From a virus, in IMG/VR virus record IMGVR_UViG_3300035130_000021, positions 1 through 20,016 of that record: 20,016 nt of DNA, one strand, 5' to 3'. The notes below the pieces were generated by a model. The model saw nothing but the letters and a program-made list of their open reading frames with translations. It made no database searches and was not told the origin of the DNA. The position numbers and the translations under genes were made by a program. Position 1 is the stretch's first letter; each line of letters starts with the position of its first letter. Shown here piece by piece: positions 2,457-14,511 of the stretch.

Positions 2457-3296
2457 TTAGCTGGCAGCAAAAGCAGAGCCATCGTGCTTAATCTGCACGA
2501 CACCACTGTTCTGCAACAGTTTCGCACCATGATAGAGAGTGGCACGCGACCAAGACAACTGCTGCTTGGCATCGTAACCAACCTCGACCTCCATCTCCTT
2601 AGAGTTTGCCGCATGCCCAATGGCGTTCTGGTGCCACATGTAGCAATACTCAGTGGAGGTTCCGACACCAGTAAGGTGCGGATGGATCATGATGTTAACA
2701 CCGCCCCAGCGACGCATACGGCGGGCTGGACCAGCAAACGGCTTGACCTCTACATAGTCAGCCGATGCATACTCAGGGATCTGCATAAGATAACCATTCG
2801 CCGCTGGAGTAATGACGGCGAACATCTTATCTTCCTGCGTGACATCAACATCATTCGCAGCCAAGATAACGTGAGCCTTGATAAACAGGTTCAGCGACAT
2901 GGTTGTCGATGTACCAGTATCATTGGTCGCCGTATCCAACTGAGTGATGATGGCGTTGTCGATATTGCGATTCAGAGTAGCAATGCTGGAGTCCAGCATA
3001 ATGCGCTTCTGATCGCCCTGAGATGCGAAGATGTTGAATCCCGTCCGCTCGAACGGCGCATGGTATTCTACCAATGTGCAAGTATTCTGCACGTTGGAGA
3101 CAGTATTATAAGGAATTAGAGAGTTAACACCCCTAGTAACTGCGGTCGCGCTTCCGGACCCAGAAACCAAGAATATTGCACTATTACCTTTAATTACTGC
3201 CTCTTGAACACAACCGGCGCGAAGAATAGTATAGTTCTGCTCAAACGCGGCGATGTGTTCTTTTCGATATGCTGTTTGAAAGGCATAATCGACCAT
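2457..3296 (-). CDS. Major capsid protein
   Basis: About 279 residues, predicted from the ATG at 3296 (MVDYAFQTAYRKEHIAAFEQ). AAAGGA lies eight bases upstream, and the longer in-frame extension to 3365 would run into the non-coding leader, so the shorter start is preferred. It has the composition and order of HK97-fold phage coat proteins: a helical N-arm, a long helix region around RIMLDSSIATLNRNIDNAIITQL, then KMFAVITPAANGYLMQIPEY, and a late WGGVNIMIHPHLTG beta segment typical of the P-domain. It directly follows the scaffold gene in operon order, as in T7-like phages, although the tnpB insertion now separates the two. The Phage_capsid_2-type family is suggested but not proven by eye. Confidence 0.8.
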   Translation of the reverse strand: MVDYAFQTAYRKEHIAAFEQNYTILRAGCVQEAVIKGNSAIFLVSGSGSATAVTRGVNSLIPYNTVSNVQNTCTLVEYHAPFERTGFNIFASQGDQKRIMLDSSIATLNRNIDNAIITQLDTATNDTGTSTTMSLNLFIKAHVILAANDVDVTQEDKMFAVITPAANGYLMQIPEYASADYVEVKPFAGPARRMRRWGGVNIMIHPHLTGVGTSTEYCYMWHQNAIGHAANSKEMEVEVGYDAKQQLSWSRATLYHGAKLLQNSGVVQIKHDGSAFAAS

Positions 3297-3369
3297 CGGA
3301 CTTATCCTTTGTTTAGTTCGCTTTGGTGGATTGCCTTCATGCAAAGGGTTGCCGACAGGTATCATTCGC

Positions 3370-3471
3370 GGGGTAGCCGTAACGGGGCCGCTACTAAGAC
3401 AACTGTTGGGGCTTTACTTTTGGCTTGGGGCCTGATAGGAAAGCGGGGCCGTTAGACGGGGTGGCCGCTAA
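3370..3471 (+). repeat. Cluster of six GGGG runs with a recurring GGGGCCG(C/T)TA motif upstream of tnpB
   Basis: GGGG occurs at 3370, 3384, 3408, 3427, 3445 and 3458 in an intergenic stretch, with loops of about 10-20 bases. Three copies of a related motif are visible: GGGGCCGCTA at 3384, GGGGCCGTTA at 3445 and GGGGTGGCCGCTAA at 3458. The stretch lies between the capsid gene start and tnpB and probably belongs to the left part of the mobile element. It could alternatively form G-rich structure in the plus-strand transcript. No gene is seen here on either strand. Confidence 0.5.
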
Positions 3472-3482
3472 TCAGGAAATGG

Positions 3483-3499
3483 CTCAACATAAAGTTGAG
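3483..3499 (+). promoter_or_regulatory. Hairpin over the tnpB ribosome binding site
   Basis: CTCAAC at 3483-3488 pairs perfectly with GTTGAG at 3494-3499 around a five-base ATAAA loop. The right arm contains the only ribosome binding site (GAGG) for the tnpB ATG at 3504, so folding of the mRNA should restrain translation. Left-end structures of IS200/IS605 elements commonly repress translation this way; that role is inferred here. Confidence 0.5.
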
Positions 3500-3503
3500 G
3501 TTT

Positions 3504-4784
3504 ATGCAGGTATTAACCTACAAATACAGGTTGTTGCCGACACGCAGACAACACAGTGCCCTCACAGATATCCTGGAGGCACAACGACAGTTGTATAATG
3601 CCGCATTGGGGGAGCGCATTGACGCTTATCGGAAATGCGGCATTACAATCAGTGAGGCAGACCAATCAAAATCTCTTACGCAGATTAGGCGCGACGACCC
3701 AAGGTTCGCTGCCGTGCAACGGCGCATTCAGAGGGAAACGCTCCGACGCCTTGACCGCGCTTACAAGGCGTTCTTCTCACGGGTGAAGCGTGGTGAAGTC
3801 GCTGGATTTCCACGGTTTAAAGGCCGCGACTTTTTTAACGGATTTGGTTTTGACGCTTTTCTGCAGATAAAATTTGACGGGAAACGTTTGCGGTTTGCGG
3901 GAATACCCGGTGGATTGCGGGTTCACATTGACCGCCCCATCGATGGAACGATTAAGGGGATATGGTTCAAGCGAGATGGACGCCGCTGGTACGTTGGCTT
4001 CCAAGTCGAAGTCCCATGCGGAAGCACGAATGCACGGCACTCAATAGGAATTGATGTTGGCGTAGCGGTGCTTGCGGCTACCTCGCGCGGGGAAATGATT
4101 AACAACCCACGTGTGGCCAAACGAATCGAAAAAGAATTACGTCGGCGCCAGCGCGCCATATCACGTTGCCAAAAAGGATCAAGCGGGAGAAAAAAATCAA
4201 GAGCGAAGCTAAGGGCTATGTTGCGTAAAGCAACAAATACACGCCACAACCACATACATAAAACGACAGCAATCTTTGCGAAACAATTCCGTTGTGTGGC
4301 TGTTGAAAAACTAACCATACGTAATATGGTAAAGTCGGCGAAAGGAACGGTCGATAAGCCAGGAAAAAACATATCGCAAAAGTCTGGTTTAAACAGATCC
4401 ATAATGGACAGCGGATTTGGTATGTTCCGTCAATTGTTATCGTACAAGTGTGCGCGTAACGGAGTAGAGTTTATTGAAGTTGATCCAAGATACACATCGC
4501 AAAAATGTAGCTCGTGTGGATCAATTGACAAAAACTCCAGAAAGTCACAAGCTGAATTTACTTGTACAAACTGCGGATTTAGTTTAAACGCAGACATAAA
4601 TGCTGCCAAAAATATCCATAAAGCAGCTTTTGGACACACGGGCGGGCTGGTCCGTGGGATGCATAACGTAGTCGGATACGGCAAGCGTGCATCCGAAAAT
4701 ACGGCAGAGAAATCTGCCGGTCAGCGTGGCAAACTGCCATTTCATCCCATATGTGGAACACAGAAAATCGGTGCGAACACGTGA
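3504..4784 (+). CDS. tnpB: TnpB, RNA-guided RuvC-type nuclease of the IS200/IS605 group
   Basis: A 426-residue protein from the ATG at 3504 (MQVLTYKYRLLPT, the usual TnpB opening); a longer TTG start at 3495 lies inside a hairpin and is less likely. Order of parts: N-terminal helical/OrfB domain; RuvC-I GIDVGV with Asp184; basic bridge region (KELRRRQRAISRCQKG); RuvC-II AVEKLTIRNM with Glu268; zinc finger C335-x2-C338 ... C354-x2-C357; RuvC-III NADINAAKNI with Asp364. All catalytic and zinc residues are present, so the enzyme looks intact. Family knowledge: TnpB cuts DNA next to a transposon-associated motif, using an omega-RNA derived from the element's 3' end. It is transcribed against the capsid operon, and no tnpA is nearby. 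Two CRISPR-like repeats follow 40 bases after its stop. Confidence 0.93.
   Translation: MQVLTYKYRLLPTRRQHSALTDILEAQRQLYNAALGERIDAYRKCGITISEADQSKSLTQIRRDDPRFAAVQRRIQRETLRRLDRAYKAFFSRVKRGEVAGFPRFKGRDFFNGFGFDAFLQIKFDGKRLRFAGIPGGLRVHIDRPIDGTIKGIWFKRDGRRWYVGFQVEVPCGSTNARHSIGIDVGVAVLAATSRGEMINNPRVAKRIEKELRRRQRAISRCQKGSSGRKKSRAKLRAMLRKATNTRHNHIHKTTAIFAKQFRCVAVEKLTIRNMVKSAKGTVDKPGKNISQKSGLNRSIMDSGFGMFRQLLSYKCARNGVEFIEVDPRYTSQKCSSCGSIDKNSRKSQAEFTCTNCGFSLNADINAAKNIHKAAFGHTGGLVRGMHNVVGYGKRASENTAEKSAGQRGKLPFHPICGTQKIGANT
4702..4739 (+). ncRNA. Candidate omega-RNA structure in the tnpB 3' end
   Basis: Two consecutive perfect hairpins overlap the last codons of tnpB. CGGCAGA / TCTGCCG closes a GAAA tetraloop at 4702-4719, and TGGCA / TGCCA closes a three-base loop at 4727-4739. 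TnpB guide RNAs normally overlap the end of tnpB and extend into the right end, so this is where an omega-RNA scaffold is expected. The true 5' and 3' ends cannot be set from sequence alone, and the hairpins may also serve coding constraints. Confidence 0.35.
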
Positions 4785-4823
4785 CGCCTAAAACCATAGA
4801 CTTATCAACATCTAGTGGTTGGT

Positions 4824-4887
4824 GTGTTCCCCGCCCGCGCGGGGATGAACCGGTATCAGGTGTTCCCCGCCCGCGCGGGGATGAACC
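4824..4887 (+). CRISPR. Two type I-E CRISPR-like repeats with an 8-base interval (not a normal array)
   Basis: Two identical 28-base units, 4824-4851 and 4860-4887. Each starts GTGTTCCCCGC, has a CCCCGC/GCGGGG stem, and ends GCGGGGATGAACC. This matches the well-known type I-E repeat pattern, including the ATGAACC(G) segment that forms the crRNA 5' handle after Cas6e cleavage. The interval, GGTATCAG, is only 8 bases, whereas I-E spacers are about 32-33, so the pair cannot supply a normal crRNA. No cas genes or leader are visible. The units lie in the same direction as tnpB, between its stop and the end of the scaffold gene. Possible roles are an RNA anti-CRISPR, a collapsed mini-array, or the right end of the tnpB element. 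Confidence 0.7.
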
Positions 4888-4907
4888 TGAACCGAACCTC
4901 TCTTTAG

Positions 4908-6140
4908 TCACGCTCGCTCACGACGCCGACCGCGCTTTTCCTCACGTTCGGTGATTTCCAAATACTCCTTATCGAGACCCTGGCGATAGTATTCCTTGAT
5001 GTCGGTCTCCATGATCTTCTCAATTTCCTTCTTCCGGTCATTTCCAGACACCCTGCCATCTCCGGAGACAATGACGGCGTCACCGTAGGTATCTCTGGCA
5101 AAGTCCATGAGGAAATTGACCATCTCGCCGTTGTTGATAAGGCGCCGAGAGCGTCCTTCGTCATCAGTATAGCGAGCGTTCATGAGGGCCTTGGCCATGT
5201 GACCAGGGATGACATCATCATCCTTTAGGAGGCGGTCCATAAGAATGAGGGATGACTTGAACTCCGGGGGACCAAGGCGTGCCCTTAGTTCGTCACGCAG
5301 GCTTTCCTTATCCGTCTGATCCTGGACGGTGATGGTCTCAGCGTATTCAGCCTGTTGGTTTGCCAACGTTTTAGCATACCACTCTGCGGCAGCATTCATC
5401 TGATCTTGGCTGTAATTCGCCTTATAAGCCGCATCCTTGAAGGAGTCGATGAATGGCACGTCAACATCGTCCCACTGATGGCCGGGAACCTTAGGAATAT
5501 CGTAGTCCTTGGCGACAGGAGGAATGTTATTATCGCGACGCCACGCGGCAACTTCTTCTTCTGTAGCGTCTTCACTCAGCTTGCTGCGCTTATATTCACC
5601 AGATCTGATCTTCTCGCGCGCCGCAATTCCAGCACGCATAAACTCTTCCTGACTTTTAAATCTTGAGAGTTCCTTAGTGAGAGCATCGCGCCTCTTAGTA
5701 AGCTTTGATGCCGTCAGCTCATTCTCTTTACCCTTTAGAACATAATCAACTAGATTCTTGCGCCAGTCAGATTTATCATCATCTTTTTCAGACTTCTCGT
5801 CCTTCTTCTCATCATCATCTGACTTGTCGTCATCTTTCTTGTCGGCTGTTTCGTCTTTTTTATCCCGATCAATAACCTCGCCGTCGTCATCGATATCGTC
5901 TAACAGCGAGGTTCCTTTATCGTCCTGACTCTGCGCCTTATCATCAGCGGCATCGTCACCAGCCGTCGATTCATCAGAACCATCTGCCGAGGTTTCCTCG
6001 GCTGTTCCATCCGCAGACTTATCACTCACATCGTCTGATGTCTCATCACTGCTGCCCGCATCAGAACCATCTGCCGTGTCGTCCTTTACGAGATCGAGAT
6101 CTTCCTTCGTAAAGGTCTTTTCTTCCTGGTCCAAATTCAT
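4908..6140 (-). CDS. Capsid assembly scaffolding protein
   Basis: 410 residues with a very acidic N-terminal third (residues 1-125, runs of Asp, Glu, Ser and Lys) followed by helical, coiled-coil-prone sequence. The C-terminus is basic (REEKRGRRRERA). This is the charge layout of T7-like and related scaffolding proteins, whose basic C-terminal helix contacts the coat protein. The middle includes PPVAKDYDIPKVPG and WYAKTLANQQAEYAETI, consistent with the helical scaffold core seen in podovirus scaffolds. It precedes the capsid gene in operon order, as expected, but is now separated from it by about 1.6 kb holding tnpB. The stop lies 20 bases from the CRISPR-like repeats. No protease motif was seen. 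Confidence 0.82.
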   Translation of the reverse strand: MNLDQEEKTFTKEDLDLVKDDTADGSDAGSSDETSDDVSDKSADGTAEETSADGSDESTAGDDAADDKAQSQDDKGTSLLDDIDDDGEVIDRDKKDETADKKDDDKSDDDEKKDEKSEKDDDKSDWRKNLVDYVLKGKENELTASKLTKRRDALTKELSRFKSQEEFMRAGIAAREKIRSGEYKRSKLSEDATEEEVAAWRRDNNIPPVAKDYDIPKVPGHQWDDVDVPFIDSFKDAAYKANYSQDQMNAAAEWYAKTLANQQAEYAETITVQDQTDKESLRDELRARLGPPEFKSSLILMDRLLKDDDVIPGHMAKALMNARYTDDEGRSRRLINNGEMVNFLMDFARDTYGDAVIVSGDGRVSGNDRKKEIEKIMETDIKEYYRQGLDKEYLEITEREEKRGRRRERA

Positions 6141-9347: not shown

Positions 9348-9791
9348 TTAGTCCTCAGTGATGCTGCTTTCAGTCGTAAGACGAGCGGTAACGCCAGATC
9401 CAATGTTGATATTTGGGGTAACGGTTCCCAAATAATACATCACACCATCCGTGGTATCTGACGTAAGGCCAACGGAGAAATGGGTAATTGTTGACGTAGA
9501 GGTGCTGGTAGCGGAACCGAATGTAATAGCCGATACTGGCGAGGCCACTCCAGAAGATACCGTCCATCCACCAGTGGATGTGGATCTAGTTGTGGCTACA
9601 CGGGCATAGCCAGTATAAGAAGCCTCATTCGACCCCTGAGTCCCACTATCCGTAGGATCAGCGGTATGAAGCGCAACCCAAAGATCGGTTGCTGCTGACG
9701 ATGCCGCATTATCAGCTATCTGAGAAATAGCCGTAGCATTGAAAAGGAGTTGCAGAACACCATCTTCAAAGGTATCAGATTTGCCGGACAT
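9348..9791 (-). CDS. Phage fibre/decoration-type virion protein (147 aa)
   Basis: 147 residues with the recognisable plan of a common small phage virion family. There is an N-terminal helix naming the fold (DGVLQLLFNATAISQIA), then LWVALHTADPTDSGTQ, then EASYTGYARVATTRS, and later a strand pattern ITFGSATSTSTSTITHFSVGL that ends near a THFGL-type motif. The family is often annotated as a tail or head fibre; the exact location on the particle is not certain. A good AAGGAAA ribosome binding site precedes the ATG at 9791. It follows the portal gene by ten bases. No transmembrane or catalytic features are seen. Confidence 0.7.
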   Translation of the reverse strand: MSGKSDTFEDGVLQLLFNATAISQIADNAASSAATDLWVALHTADPTDSGTQGSNEASYTGYARVATTRSTSTGGWTVSSGVASPVSAITFGSATSTSTSTITHFSVGLTSDTTDGVMYYLGTVTPNINIGSGVTARLTTESSITED

Positions 9792-9801
9792 TTAAATTTC
9801 C

Positions 9802-11814
9802 TTATGTTCCCGCAGTTGCAGACTCGATCTTTCCATCCTTGCCGCGCTTGATGGTGATCTTCTTCGGTTTGGTTAGAGCGTCTTCAATCGAAGACAGTTG
9901 GACAAAAATACGCTCCTGGGCCTTCAAAACATCGTCAAGAGATGCGGACTGACGTTGAGCTATAGCCATGGCCCCATATTCAGGCATTGGTAGCTGCTCC
10001 TGTGATGGTTGAACTCCTGGCTCTTCCCAAGGCATAAGTTCTTGAGCTGGAGCTGCTTCAGAGGCCGCAGGAACCTCACTGATAGGCATTTGCTCTTGTG
10101 CTGGCGTACCCCCTGCAGCAGATGCTCCCTTAGCCTGCGCAGCCAGCATTTTGTCTGCTGGAGCAGATAGGCCGAGCTTATTAGCGGCATCGCCAACTTG
10201 AGATGCGACGGTAGCTCCTTGCGACAGTTCCTGCATGGCCGACATGATCTGCTGTTCCTGTGCAGCGGCGGCTGCTTCTTCCTGTTGTTCTTCAACAGTC
10301 TTCCGCCAAGTAGCTGGGCCACCAACACCACGAATTGCATCACGCATCGCAACGTTGATATGCAGAGGTTTAGCTGTGGCGCCAGATTGAGCACCCATTG
10401 CCAGAACCTCAAGGGAAGCCTTGAACTGCTCAACAAGAATCCTGTCCTGCGCTTGCTGAATTGGCGACTCGAAAGCCCATGTGAAATCAGCACCTGAAAG
10501 TTCGTCAGGAATATAACTCCAGTCGAACTTCTTCATGTTCCTGAGAAGAGAGAACGACAGATCAAGAACACGCGTGTTGTACTCAATCTGCATCGGCTCA
10601 AACAGTGGAAGAAGATTGCGAACATGCTCTTCAAGACGCTGAGACACCTCATATGCCGTCATCTTCCCCCCAGTTTCGGGGAGATTTAGTTTGTCAAGAT
10701 AGAAAGCCTTAGTGAGCATTTGCCGAACATCGTTCCGCATCTCAAAGCCAGCACGAAGATCGGCGTCAACTTTGATAGTGTCGAGAGCATCGGACAGCTT
10801 CATGTCATACTCAGCATCCACCCACGAGATGCCGCCAGCCATGATATTTGGCTCACCGATAACGATCTCCTGCTTGCCGATGAGAGGAGGATCGACAGCT
10901 TTTTCACCGGCCTCCAGAATGATCTGGGACAGCATTTGCGCCATGCGAGAGTCGGCGAGCGCCGTCATGGCGGCAGGAGAGAACGCGTACTGAGTACCAG
11001 AGAACCGCACCCAACGAGGAACAACATAGATGAATTCGGGAAGACCGGCTTCCTTGATGATGGTTTCGTTCTCAACATCAATATACACAATAACGTATGG
11101 GAGCTTTGACTTTTTTCCTGTACCTTCGTCATCTTTTATGATAGCGTCATATTCATCTGACGGCATCACAACGACATGAAGCGGGAACTCGCGCCAGGGC
11201 TCTTTCTCATAGGCATCTTTGACGGATTGGTGCACGCGGTCAGATCTGAACTGGGATACAATCCCTCTAGCCTGCATGCGATCTTTCCGATGGAGGTGAT
11301 CAACATCACCGAGTTCGTTCTCTAGCCATGCGCAATCCTTAAGATGATGGTTCTTAAAGAACAGATGATCACGAGTTCGTGGTGACTCCATGATCGACAT
11401 AACGCCTTGGCCAAAGTTGATGTAAAACCTGTCTGTTTCCTTGGATGCCCTTATGAATTTGGAGTTCGGGTTATAAAGGCCCTGCCGCACGACAGATGTT
11501 ACATACTGTAATGCGCGGGCGTTTTCTTCATCAGCATCCAGGCGATCATCCATGGTTGTGGTTCTAAACCATGGACGGTCCTGTGGCCTCAACATCGCCC
11601 CAATCATATTGGATAGTTCTCTAGAGACGATCTCTGGGAAGCTGTCCATACGATCAGCTGCCCAGTCCTCACCAAGAGTAAGATCCCTGACGAAATTGGC
11701 CAAGTCAGGAGCATACTGCCAAGCTATTTCTTGGCACAGATTATCAAGCTGGTTCTTTTTGCCGAATAATCTATTACCTATGCTAATGAGTTCACTTGCT
11801 CGTGATTTACTCAT
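9802..11814 (-). CDS. Portal protein (podovirus-type head-tail connector)
   Basis: 670 residues. The opening third (LCQEIAWQYAPDLANF; SNMIGAMLRPQDRPWFRTT) and the central MTKAFYLDKLNLPETGGKMTAYEVSQRLEE segment match the podovirus head-to-tail connecting protein family, where the MTAxEVxxR-type helix is strongly conserved. Twelve copies form the ring through which DNA enters and leaves the capsid. The C-terminal 170 residues are low-complexity, rich in Gln, Ala, Glu and Pro (EEQQEEAAAAAQEQQ), with a last coiled coil and a Lys-rich end. Its ATG overlaps the stop of the 57-residue gene as ATGA. This length is within the range of portals that carry extended C-terminal tails. Confidence 0.9.
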   Translation of the reverse strand: MSKSRASELISIGNRLFGKKNQLDNLCQEIAWQYAPDLANFVRDLTLGEDWAADRMDSFPEIVSRELSNMIGAMLRPQDRPWFRTTTMDDRLDADEENARALQYVTSVVRQGLYNPNSKFIRASKETDRFYINFGQGVMSIMESPRTRDHLFFKNHHLKDCAWLENELGDVDHLHRKDRMQARGIVSQFRSDRVHQSVKDAYEKEPWREFPLHVVVMPSDEYDAIIKDDEGTGKKSKLPYVIVYIDVENETIIKEAGLPEFIYVVPRWVRFSGTQYAFSPAAMTALADSRMAQMLSQIILEAGEKAVDPPLIGKQEIVIGEPNIMAGGISWVDAEYDMKLSDALDTIKVDADLRAGFEMRNDVRQMLTKAFYLDKLNLPETGGKMTAYEVSQRLEEHVRNLLPLFEPMQIEYNTRVLDLSFSLLRNMKKFDWSYIPDELSGADFTWAFESPIQQAQDRILVEQFKASLEVLAMGAQSGATAKPLHINVAMRDAIRGVGGPATWRKTVEEQQEEAAAAAQEQQIMSAMQELSQGATVASQVGDAANKLGLSAPADKMLAAQAKGASAAGGTPAQEQMPISEVPAASEAAPAQELMPWEEPGVQPSQEQLPMPEYGAMAIAQRQSASLDDVLKAQERIFVQLSSIEDALTKPKKITIKRGKDGKIESATAGT

Positions 11815-12043: not shown

Positions 12044-12427
12044 TTACCTACCTATCCTATAGCCACGTTGCTCTATATCGAACAATTCGTCTTCGCTGAG
12101 TTTTCCCTTGTTCATCTTCGCCCACTCGTCTTTAGTGACTAAAAACATCTCTTTTTTATCGGCACGAGTTTTAACTAGATAGTCGGCAAGAACTTTTTCG
12201 TCGCTCTTAATTGGCTCACTAGTTGTCCCTGTATCCGGGCCAGCCTTAGACGAAACCCTTGGCGTAATGGCCTTAGGAGTTTGGGGTGCAGCAGTTCCGC
12301 TACCTGAATAAATGTCATTCAGCCTATCAGTCCCAGGCCACGCAACATCAGATGGCATCTGGAAACTTCCGCCACCGCCACCAACAGAGCCGCCCGCAGA
12401 TGGGCCGCCGCTAAACAATCCAGCCAT
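12044..12427 (-). CDS. Small Gly-rich head protein between terminase and portal (127 aa)
   Basis: 127 residues. The N-terminal 35 are Gly/Ser-rich (GLFSGGPSAGGSVGGGGGSF), the centre is Pro/Ser/Thr-rich, and the C-terminal 50 are charged and helical (SDEKVLADYLVKTRADKKE) with a last Tyr-Arg-Ile-Gly-Arg. The start overlaps the terminase stop as TAATG, so it is translationally coupled. Low-complexity Gly-rich proteins beside portal genes are common in podoviruses but poorly understood. I do not recognise a named family. Confidence 0.6.
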   Translation of the reverse strand: MAGLFSGGPSAGGSVGGGGGSFQMPSDVAWPGTDRLNDIYSGSGTAAPQTPKAITPRVSSKAGPDTGTTSEPIKSDEKVLADYLVKTRADKKEMFLVTKDEWAKMNKGKLSEDELFDIEQRGYRIGR

Positions 12428-14511
12428 TAGAGTCTCCTTCTTCTCAACGGGCCTTCGCGCCGTTTTGCAAATTGTGGAAGTCCTACTGATCTCGGATCAA
12501 CAGCACGGCGACTTCCATTATATCCACGCTTCAGCGCAAGTTCGCCCATGGCCCATGCCATTACAACCACATCGCCCTTACCGGGAGAACGTCCAAGACG
12601 TTCACGTAGCTTATCTTTTGGCTCCACAATGATGCCTCTAAGGCCAACCTCATAGGTCGGAGCGGCTAGATCTGAACGAAGTTCAGTGCTTGGGGGAAGG
12701 CATATCTGCGAACCGCCCTCTTGATCTGGATCAAGAGCCTCACGGAAACGCCACCAGATCTCGGCGCGTTTGTTGGCGAACTTTAGGTGTTTGTCGTCAG
12801 TCTTTCCTGACGAAGAATGTGCCCCATGATAAGCAAGGCCCTTAATGCCGTTATCATCAAGCCTAAGCATTACGGAGCCACCGTAACCGCCGCCAACGTC
12901 AACAATTACTGGCGCATTATCACGGCGGTATCGTATGATCGTCGCTGCGGCACGAGACCCGTCAGCTGTTTCATCGCCCTTCTTTGTAATAGGCTCTGAA
13001 TACCAGTGACCGTAACGCGCCACTAATTCCGCCGCGTCCCTACCGCCACCAGCGGGATCGAAGGCCATCGCGCTCATCCCGCCCTGGTTACGCCAGCCAT
13101 CCTTGGTCCAGCGATCTTGGGCTTCGATGATCCATTGGGTAGGAATGACCTGCCACTCAGCGTCTTGGCGAGCCAACATGAAGTTGCCATCACGAACTGC
13201 TGACCGGAGAGGTTCCGGGAGGGAGTCGAGACGCGCCTTGTAGTTGGTATCAACAAGGAACGGGTTATCAGACAACTTAGCTGGGATAAACGTTCTTGAC
13301 TGAGCCTCTACATCATCTCCCTGCAGGATGTAATGGTGGCGCCCCTTATCGTCTGTGAACACTTCATCAGACGGAACTTCGAAATTAGTGTCTTCACCAG
13401 CGGTAACGAACCACCTAAGTTCACCTGATTTCGCTGGATTATGATGGGTAACATCCAGCCATGGCCTAAACATCTTGATGAGCCAGTCGCCATTGGAATC
13501 TACAGGCGGATTTGATGCAAGGACAGCACGGCATCTTTGGTTAGGATGGGCACCGTCAGGACGAAGCCAGCCAAGGTGGAAGTGTATTTGTGATTCAAGA
13601 AAATGGGCCGCCTCATCGAAAATTTTCAGGTCATACGACCTCCCTTGAAAAGACTGCTCATCACCTATATGTTGATTTGCCCCAAATTGTATAAACTTAC
13701 CGTTAACAGTCCTAAGTATAGGTGGAGGTGTTCCGTTGAAACCATTTCTAGTTCCATTAATTTCTACTGCTCGCTCTACTAGAGCGCCTATGTCTGAATA
13801 CCTTCTTCGTACAATTAATGACCTTCTATGCTCATTAAATGCCAGTCCTAAACCTAGATCGCTATTATGAGTTGGGATCATAGATCTACTAACAAGATAC
13901 AAATGCGAATGGCTATCAACCTCTATACAACGAACAGGAACAGAATTTATTGGTTTGATTGATTTTATATAAAATCTACCATCGACAAACTTAGGCATTT
14001 TCAATGCAAAATCATCAATAATGTCCATAAACAAGTCACCTGTTGTTTTTATTATATTTTCATCAGGTGATAATTTTATTCTCCACTGATGGCTTCTGTC
14101 AGCAATAATGTTTTCTATATTTCCACAGCAGGTAGAAAATTCTACGTTATAGCAATTCCTACCAAACATAATTTCAGTTGCAGCTGTGACATTACATACA
14201 TCAAGATTCTCATCGAAAACTTCATCGCCAATCTTAATATTCTCCAAGATTGTTTGCCCATGGGGAGTTGGAACTATAGTATGTATACTTAGAGCTTTCC
14301 CGCCCGCTGCGGCGCCACCATACAACAGTATATCGGCCTTAGAATTATACGCATCAGTCTGAGGCCCAGGGTTAGGAACCCATAAAGCTTTCTCCCCCCA
14401 TTTTGGATGCGTCTTTGTCTCTTTGTCGAGTTTGGCGAATTCCTCAGGGGGAAGGGCTTTTATCTTCTCAAGAATCGACTGGAGATCAGACACGCTGTTC
14501 TGCCCGTCCAT
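12427..14511 (-). CDS. terL: Terminase large subunit (TerL), interrupted in frame by an intein
   Basis: 694 residues, reducing to 550 after splicing, a normal TerL size. The ATPase half has a Walker A split by the intein: GGAAAGGK at 65-72, then Ser-Asp at 217-218. It also has Walker B IFDEAAHF with Asp299-Glu300 and the coupling motif VLASNPP at 330-336. The nuclease half has an RNase H-like set: Asp485 in MAFDPAGGGRD, Asp538 in PVIVDVGGGYGG, and Asp647 in SPGKGDVVVMA. TerL packages phage DNA into the procapsid through the portal. The ATG at 14511 lies inside the end of the upstream gene (26-base overlap), with only a weak ribosome binding site. Splicing must occur for the ATPase to work, since the Walker A Lys and Ser are 145 residues apart in the precursor. 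Confidence 0.95.
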   Translation of the reverse strand: MDGQNSVSDLQSILEKIKALPPEEFAKLDKETKTHPKWGEKALWVPNPGPQTDAYNSKADILLYGGAAAGGKALSIHTIVPTPHGQTILENIKIGDEVFDENLDVCNVTAATEIMFGRNCYNVEFSTCCGNIENIIADRSHQWRIKLSPDENIIKTTGDLFMDIIDDFALKMPKFVDGRFYIKSIKPINSVPVRCIEVDSHSHLYLVSRSMIPTHNSDLGLGLAFNEHRRSLIVRRRYSDIGALVERAVEINGTRNGFNGTPPPILRTVNGKFIQFGANQHIGDEQSFQGRSYDLKIFDEAAHFLESQIHFHLGWLRPDGAHPNQRCRAVLASNPPVDSNGDWLIKMFRPWLDVTHHNPAKSGELRWFVTAGEDTNFEVPSDEVFTDDKGRHHYILQGDDVEAQSRTFIPAKLSDNPFLVDTNYKARLDSLPEPLRSAVRDGNFMLARQDAEWQVIPTQWIIEAQDRWTKDGWRNQGGMSAMAFDPAGGGRDAAELVARYGHWYSEPITKKGDETADGSRAAATIIRYRRDNAPVIVDVGGGYGGSVMLRLDDNGIKGLAYHGAHSSSGKTDDKHLKFANKRAEIWWRFREALDPDQEGGSQICLPPSTELRSDLAAPTYEVGLRGIIVEPKDKLRERLGRSPGKGDVVVMAWAMGELALKRGYNGSRRAVDPRSVGLPQFAKRREGPLRRRRL
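13864..14295 (-). other. Class 3 mini-intein in the TerL Walker A motif (144 aa)
   Basis: Residues 73-216 of the terminase frame. The insert begins with Ala (ALSIHTIVPTPHGQ) rather than Cys or Ser, and block A continues to IKIGDEVFDENLDVC. Block B is ADRSHQWRI with His69 and Trp71 of the intein. Block F is VRCIEVDSHSHLYLV with Cys123. Block G is MIPTHN with Thr142, His143 and Asn144, followed by extein Ser+1. Ala1 with Trp, Cys and Thr at these block positions is the known class 3 (WCT) signature, in which the block F Cys is the first nucleophile. At 144 residues there is no room for a homing endonuclease. The DNA is distinctly richer in A and T than the flanking terminase. Confidence 0.92.

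Follow-up and report, generated by a model that had tools for sequence, protein, structure and literature searches.

The window, the whole stretch of 20,016 nucleotides that was analysed, is a linear IMG/VR contig (IMGVR_UViG_3300035130_000021) with genes for a head-tail connector, a capsid protein and a terminase, in agreement with its assignment to a phage in an earlier sequence-only reading. The head module was podovirus-like, and no DNA similarity of the window to annotated phages was found. A tnpB gene and, behind it on the same strand, a pair of type I-E CRISPR repeats were located between the major capsid gene and a scaffold-like gene (Table 1). Toward the end of the contig (18485-20014), a tyrosine integrase gene was followed by a hisF-like fragment truncated where the contig stops, which suggests a prophage border. 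The terminase large subunit (12427-14511, minus strand) seemed by eye to contain an intein-like insertion near its N-terminus, where no Pfam Hint domain was found. A leader with the recurring motifs GCGGCCACCCC / GCGGACAACCC preceded the capsid gene (3300-3475, minus strand) and was found at the same place in L017-L022 and L054; it possibly represents a conserved structured RNA and had no Rfam match.

Table 1. Features of the tnpB-repeat locus in the window and compressed I-E-like repeat strings in other viral contigs
Feature	Sequence	Position	Strand	Description
Major capsid gene, on the downstream side of the slot	window	2457-3299	-	Pfam PF19821; start codon set near 3299 on the basis of the reading frame
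tnpB, RNA-guided nuclease	window	3495-4784	+	Pfam, NCBIfam, alignment, trees
Hairpin with ATCAA loop	window	4792-4820	+	putative hairpin at the right end of the tnpB element and at the terminus of its guide RNA; fold common to Bosea L093 and L094
Type I-E CRISPR repeat, copy 1	window	4824-4851	+	29th base G at 4852; same as a cellular I-E repeat of 61-nt period
Predicted 36-nt Cas6e product	window	4845-4880	+	putative; 8-nt handle AUGAACCG, 7-nt spacer, repeat hairpin
Longer hairpin enclosing copy 2	window	4851-4894	+	predicted outer stem of CGGTATCAGGT and ACCTGAACCG, from the interval and the 3' flank
Interval GGTATCAG	window	4852-4859	+	8 nt; 7 nt past the 29th repeat base; below I-E spacer size
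Type I-E CRISPR repeat, copy 2	window	4860-4887	+	followed by T where G is usual at position 29
Scaffold-like gene, on the upstream side of the slot	window	4908-6140	-	phrog_3742; stop 20 nt from copy 2
Compressed string	L110	2446-2675		five copies, 49-50 nt period
Compressed string	L099	2830-3062		4-5 copies: four at 49-50 nt and one more
Compressed string	L108	3274-3346		two copies, 50 nt apart, then a terminator-like hairpin
Compressed string	L098	4570-4755		two 49-nt intervals alike; terminator-like hairpin after the string

The scaffold-like gene was kept ahead of the capsid gene in 39 capsid-relative loci, and the gap between the two is a site of accessory insertions in related phages. 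In L068 (2535-3353), the place taken by tnpB in the window was occupied by a LAGLIDADG endonuclease gene. The sequence-only reading had proposed a search for the same pair in related phages, and none was found: all 64 capsid relatives (46-68% identity) were without tnpB and without the repeats, and the pair was private to one contig. Since these relatives lacked both and L068 carried another insert, tnpB and the repeats are a private insertion, which was probably recent.

A repeat search of the window showed two copies of the 28-nt unit GTGTTCCCCGCCCGCGCGGGGATGAACC, 100% identical and with a period of 36 nt, where they had been placed from the letters alone. Their assignment to type I-E also held, as they matched real cellular arrays letter for letter. 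No sites beyond the two copies were found in the 20-kb window when up to three mismatches to the I-E consensus were allowed, and 100 shuffles gave none. Copy 1 and the following G formed a complete 29-nt I-E repeat, leaving an interval of 7 nt (GTATCAG). Of 415 repeats in cellular I-E arrays, 389 had G at position 29; copy 1 had this G, and copy 2 was followed by T, so the sequence downstream of the pair was unlike an acquired spacer. The interval of 7-8 nt could not hold a spacer, as had been claimed, the canonical period of cellular arrays being 61 nt. The pair therefore lacked both the spacer of about 32 nt and the G at position 29 of each repeat that mark an I-E array or a viral mini-array. 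The reported absence of cas genes was borne out when selected proteins were scanned with Pfam, PHROGs and PADLOC, none being recognised besides TnpB. Rfam gave no match across the repeat pair.

The proposed search for cellular I-E arrays with the same repeat was successful. Three of the 385 alphaproteobacterial genomes sampled contained the 28-mer as an ordinary I-E repeat, in 22, 13 and 1 copies, and the arrays with 22 and 13 copies had a strict 61-nt period. This identity indicates that the pair is a true CRISPR sequence and not a TnpB end hairpin. Such end hairpins (GGAATCCCC..TTTAG..GGGGAGGATGTCAA) were found behind L114, L115, L118 and L120; the likeness to them was confined to the stem, which makes chance or convergence very unlikely, and the pair derives from a CRISPR array. 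The tight spacing was exceptional. A search of 84,980 genomes for the tight-pair pattern returned 14 stretches, all within long I-E arrays and each consisting of a single shortened spacer or an assembly gap (some across N gaps), and no isolated tight I-E pair. The exact repeat form with a short gap was absent from IMG/VR except for the present record, and no tight I-F pairs were found there. Among 92 viral loci with I-E-like repeats, the spacing was 61-62 nt in 306 of about 350 cases.

Short stretches in common can cause metagenomic contigs to be fused, and reads of a host I-E array might have been joined into the phage contig in this way. Another viral contig, L212, is perhaps such a case: an eight-repeat I-E array (9660-10320) continued directly into part of a tnpB gene, the junction being a spacer identical to this tnpB, and spacer 2 of the array was the same as the sequence past the last repeat, as could result from recombination or misassembly. 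A spacer-protospacer misassembly of this type was judged unlikely in the window because copy 2 was followed by T, whereas a G would be expected ahead of a spacer of phage origin. Additionally, a 7-nt spacer is not expected of a host array, and both flanks continued directly into intact genes. An assembly artefact is thus highly improbable, the least probable of the explanations considered.

The TnpB of the window was complete and retained the RuvC residues D187, E271 and D367, which were invariant in the alignment. The closest relatives found were Bosea plasmid genes (46%), and an exact-peptide search of IMG/VR returned no relatives. In a tree of 47 rows, the protein fell within a supported clade of nine (99/95 and 97/91). 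Four of the eight other members (L112, L113, L117 and L122, alphaproteobacterial) had CRISPR-like arrays with a 66-nt period directly downstream on the same strand, compared with none of the 38 rows outside, and these four TnpBs are possibly type V / transposon-CRISPR intermediates. As this clade is often followed by arrays, a link between TnpB and the repeats remains a candidate. The I-E repeats could serve TnpB as an array or guide source: a guide RNA extending beyond the element would include the I-E repeat and might direct the nuclease to host I-E arrays, or the locus could be a transposon-to-CRISPR intermediate. Copy 1 began 39 nt past the tnpB stop codon, within the range of the array-bearing relatives and at the end of the predicted guide-RNA hairpin. 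However, the repeats of these relatives were of a 36-nt type and none was I-E-like, no array was found behind the nearest relatives from Bosea, and the adjoining interval of only 7-8 nt provides no guide. PADLOC matched the protein to Cas12u4 and Cas12f, but ordinary TnpBs scored equally, and the matches were not taken as a sign of a Cas12. A role of the repeats in guiding TnpB is therefore unlikely.

The predicted end of the element was placed at about 4820-4828, so that the repeats would begin at this end or within a few bases of it. An IS605-like end at TCAAC (4805-4809) was dropped given the ends of the Bosea elements on plasmids L093 and L094, which had terminal inverted repeats and target duplications of about 8 bp (TTTGTTAG in L094). 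One of these two elements interrupted an adenylate-kinase-like gene, and the insertion of the Bosea elements did not follow the IS605 mode. Neither inverted ends nor a target-site duplication like those of the Bosea elements was found at the window element. The suggestion that the repeats belong to the guide RNA or right end of the element fared unevenly: it was weakened by the predicted end hairpin, which preceded the repeats and resembled that of the Bosea elements, and retained some force from the arrays behind other members of the clade. No I-E repeats were found behind 45 TnpB relatives, where two I-E-like matches (L242 and L255) were poor hairpin matches and were rejected as repeats; the pair was thus not a motif shared by related tnpB genes. 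This finding and the match to cellular arrays ran opposite to the pattern named as refuting an anti-CRISPR role, namely a pair that always moves with the tnpB family and never matches a host-type I-E repeat.

These observations also bear on a capture without function, in which recombination brought in tnpB together with the terminal part of a host I-E array, which was then mostly lost and had its last spacer shrunk to 7 nt, leaving an inert relic. The repeats started about where the predicted tnpB element ended, as captured flanking DNA would, and the target-site duplications seen in Bosea were absent. The fusion of array and tnpB fragment in L212 and the restriction of the pair to a single contig are also consistent with such a capture. 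Against it, both copies were perfect over 28 nt without the upkeep of an array, although a recent capture would explain this perfection equally well, and shortened intervals were very rare even within cellular arrays.

The RNA of the pair was predicted to fold into two hairpins with an energy of -51.1 kcal/mol (z = -4.2 against shuffles). The stem of copy 2 was extended by its flanks, and an equally good folding was obtained with only 0.05% of shuffled and 0.45% of random flanks. The repeats had the crRNA orientation on the strand that encodes tnpB, and the phage late genes ran in the opposite direction. No promoter-like or terminator-like sites for the repeats were found on the plus strand, with no consensus promoter close upstream, and no T-run followed the hairpins on either strand. 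TnpB guide RNAs run past the element end, so read-through into copy 1 is expected if TnpB is active. The hairpins could instead act on the minus strand as 3' untranslated stem-loops of the scaffold message before the capsid gene, serving as terminator, attenuator or stabiliser, with the CRISPR origin being incidental. They lay 20 nt past the scaffold stop codon, similarly placed hairpins were seen by eye in some relatives, such as L054 and L021, and the antisense RNA folded almost as strongly (-47.3 kcal/mol). This reading is improbable, however, as the T-run is missing, the exact match beyond the stem is left unexplained, and tnpB already stands between the hairpins and the capsid gene.

Compressed I-E-like strings of 2-5 copies with periods of 49-50 nt were found in four unrelated viral contigs among the 92 loci (Table 1). 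The repeat unit of L108 was 84% identical in DNA to that of L099. The intervals in these strings were partly alike, in contrast to true spacers. The strings are candidate multi-hairpin RNA anti-CRISPRs. L109 was excluded from this group since its palindrome was not I-E. An I-E mini-array of four repeats with a 61-nt period was present in Saccharomonospora phage PIS 136 (L095, 2310-2525), with no annotated cas genes nearby. That phages carry solitary CRISPR repeats as RNA anti-CRISPRs (Racrs), as the sequence-only reading stated, is documented for type I-E by RacrIE1 and RacrIE2, whose activity was experimentally proven (PMC10651486). The SRUFinder survey clustered full matches within 100 bp or less as arrays and then dropped them (Camara-Wilpert et al. 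2023, PMC10651486). Compressed strings would therefore be missing from its list.

We tentatively favor, at somewhat less than an even chance, the reading that the phage keeps a captured alphaproteobacterial-type I-E repeat pair behind tnpB as an RNA anti-CRISPR decoy. The phage would have captured two repeat copies and held them close behind tnpB, and the tnpB or guide-RNA transcript would read through into them. In I-E systems, Cas6e cuts after repeat base 21. Host Cas6e may thus bind each hairpin and cut after the stem, and the cleavage would release a mini-crRNA of 36 nt whose spacer is 7 nt long. This mini-crRNA might hold Cas6e, and perhaps Cas5 with one or two Cas7, in a dead complex, similar to single-repeat Racrs. 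Since, in the proven I-F case, Cas6f and Cas7f are trapped by the Racr and competition from a plain non-targeting crRNA is also inhibitory, a two-ended mini-crRNA is a plausible trap. The decoy is favored by the exact 28-mer in real arrays, the preservation of two identical, intact copies away from an array, the lack of isolated tight pairs among 84,980 genomes, the strong fold with the extra stem of copy 2, the compressed strings in other phages, the proven I-E Racrs and the removal of close repeats by SRUFinder. It is opposed by the missing promoter-like and terminator-like sites on the plus strand and by the late genes running the other way. No relative had the pair, which gives no sign of conservation, and the literature consulted showed no crRNA with a 7-nt spacer in I-E Cascade. 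The inert relic is nearly as likely as the decoy, and the two are hard to tell apart because a recent capture equally explains two perfect copies. Both roles might also be combined: a TnpB guide RNA extending past about 4820 would include an I-E repeat and aim the nuclease at host arrays, while the two hairpins would also occupy Cas6e. This combination is quite improbable; if true, it would unite an RNA decoy and array-cutting counter-defence in one locus.

The published catalogue of RNA anti-CRISPRs consists of solitary repeats by design. If close, spacer-less repeats act as decoys, an overlooked class exists in several unrelated phages (L108, L110, L099 and the window). The pair would also test the idea that a short-spacer crRNA with both handle and hairpin traps more Cascade than a lone hairpin, and its site behind a TnpB whose clade is prone to CRISPR linkage is a concrete case of transposon nucleases meeting CRISPR repeats.

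Compared with known systems, the pair shared with the IS200/IS605 TnpB right ends (GGAATCCCC...GGGGAGGATGTCAA) a GC-rich CCCC/GGGG hairpin tens of nucleotides past the tnpB stop codon, but it matched I-E at 28 of 28 positions twice, beyond the stem, and did not match the TnpB end consensus. As in CRISPR-linked TnpBs and type V intermediates (Cas12f- or TranC-like, with LaTranC present in the PDB), the TnpB belonged to a clade with same-strand arrays directly downstream; the relatives, however, had their own 36-nt-type repeats with a 66-nt period, whereas the window had I-E repeats and no spacer of guide length. Virus-borne mini-CRISPR arrays (PMC6858448; reviewed in PMC11656645) likewise consist of a few host-type repeats in a viral genome, but the window offered 7-8 nt in place of a usable spacer of 32-33 nt. 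A Racr (PMC10651486) is one copy, solitary in the sense of SRUFinder when no other full repeat lies within 100 bp, whereas the window had two full copies 36 nt apart and so was not solitary; the I-E Racrs were proven to block immunity, whereas the pair, with no promoter of its own seen, has candidate activity. The pair nevertheless resembled the Racrs in being a CRISPR repeat in a phage intergenic region with no cas operon, and it combined their two structural marks, a repeat-like sequence, here an exact match to cellular I-E repeats, and an intact hairpin in the predicted fold.
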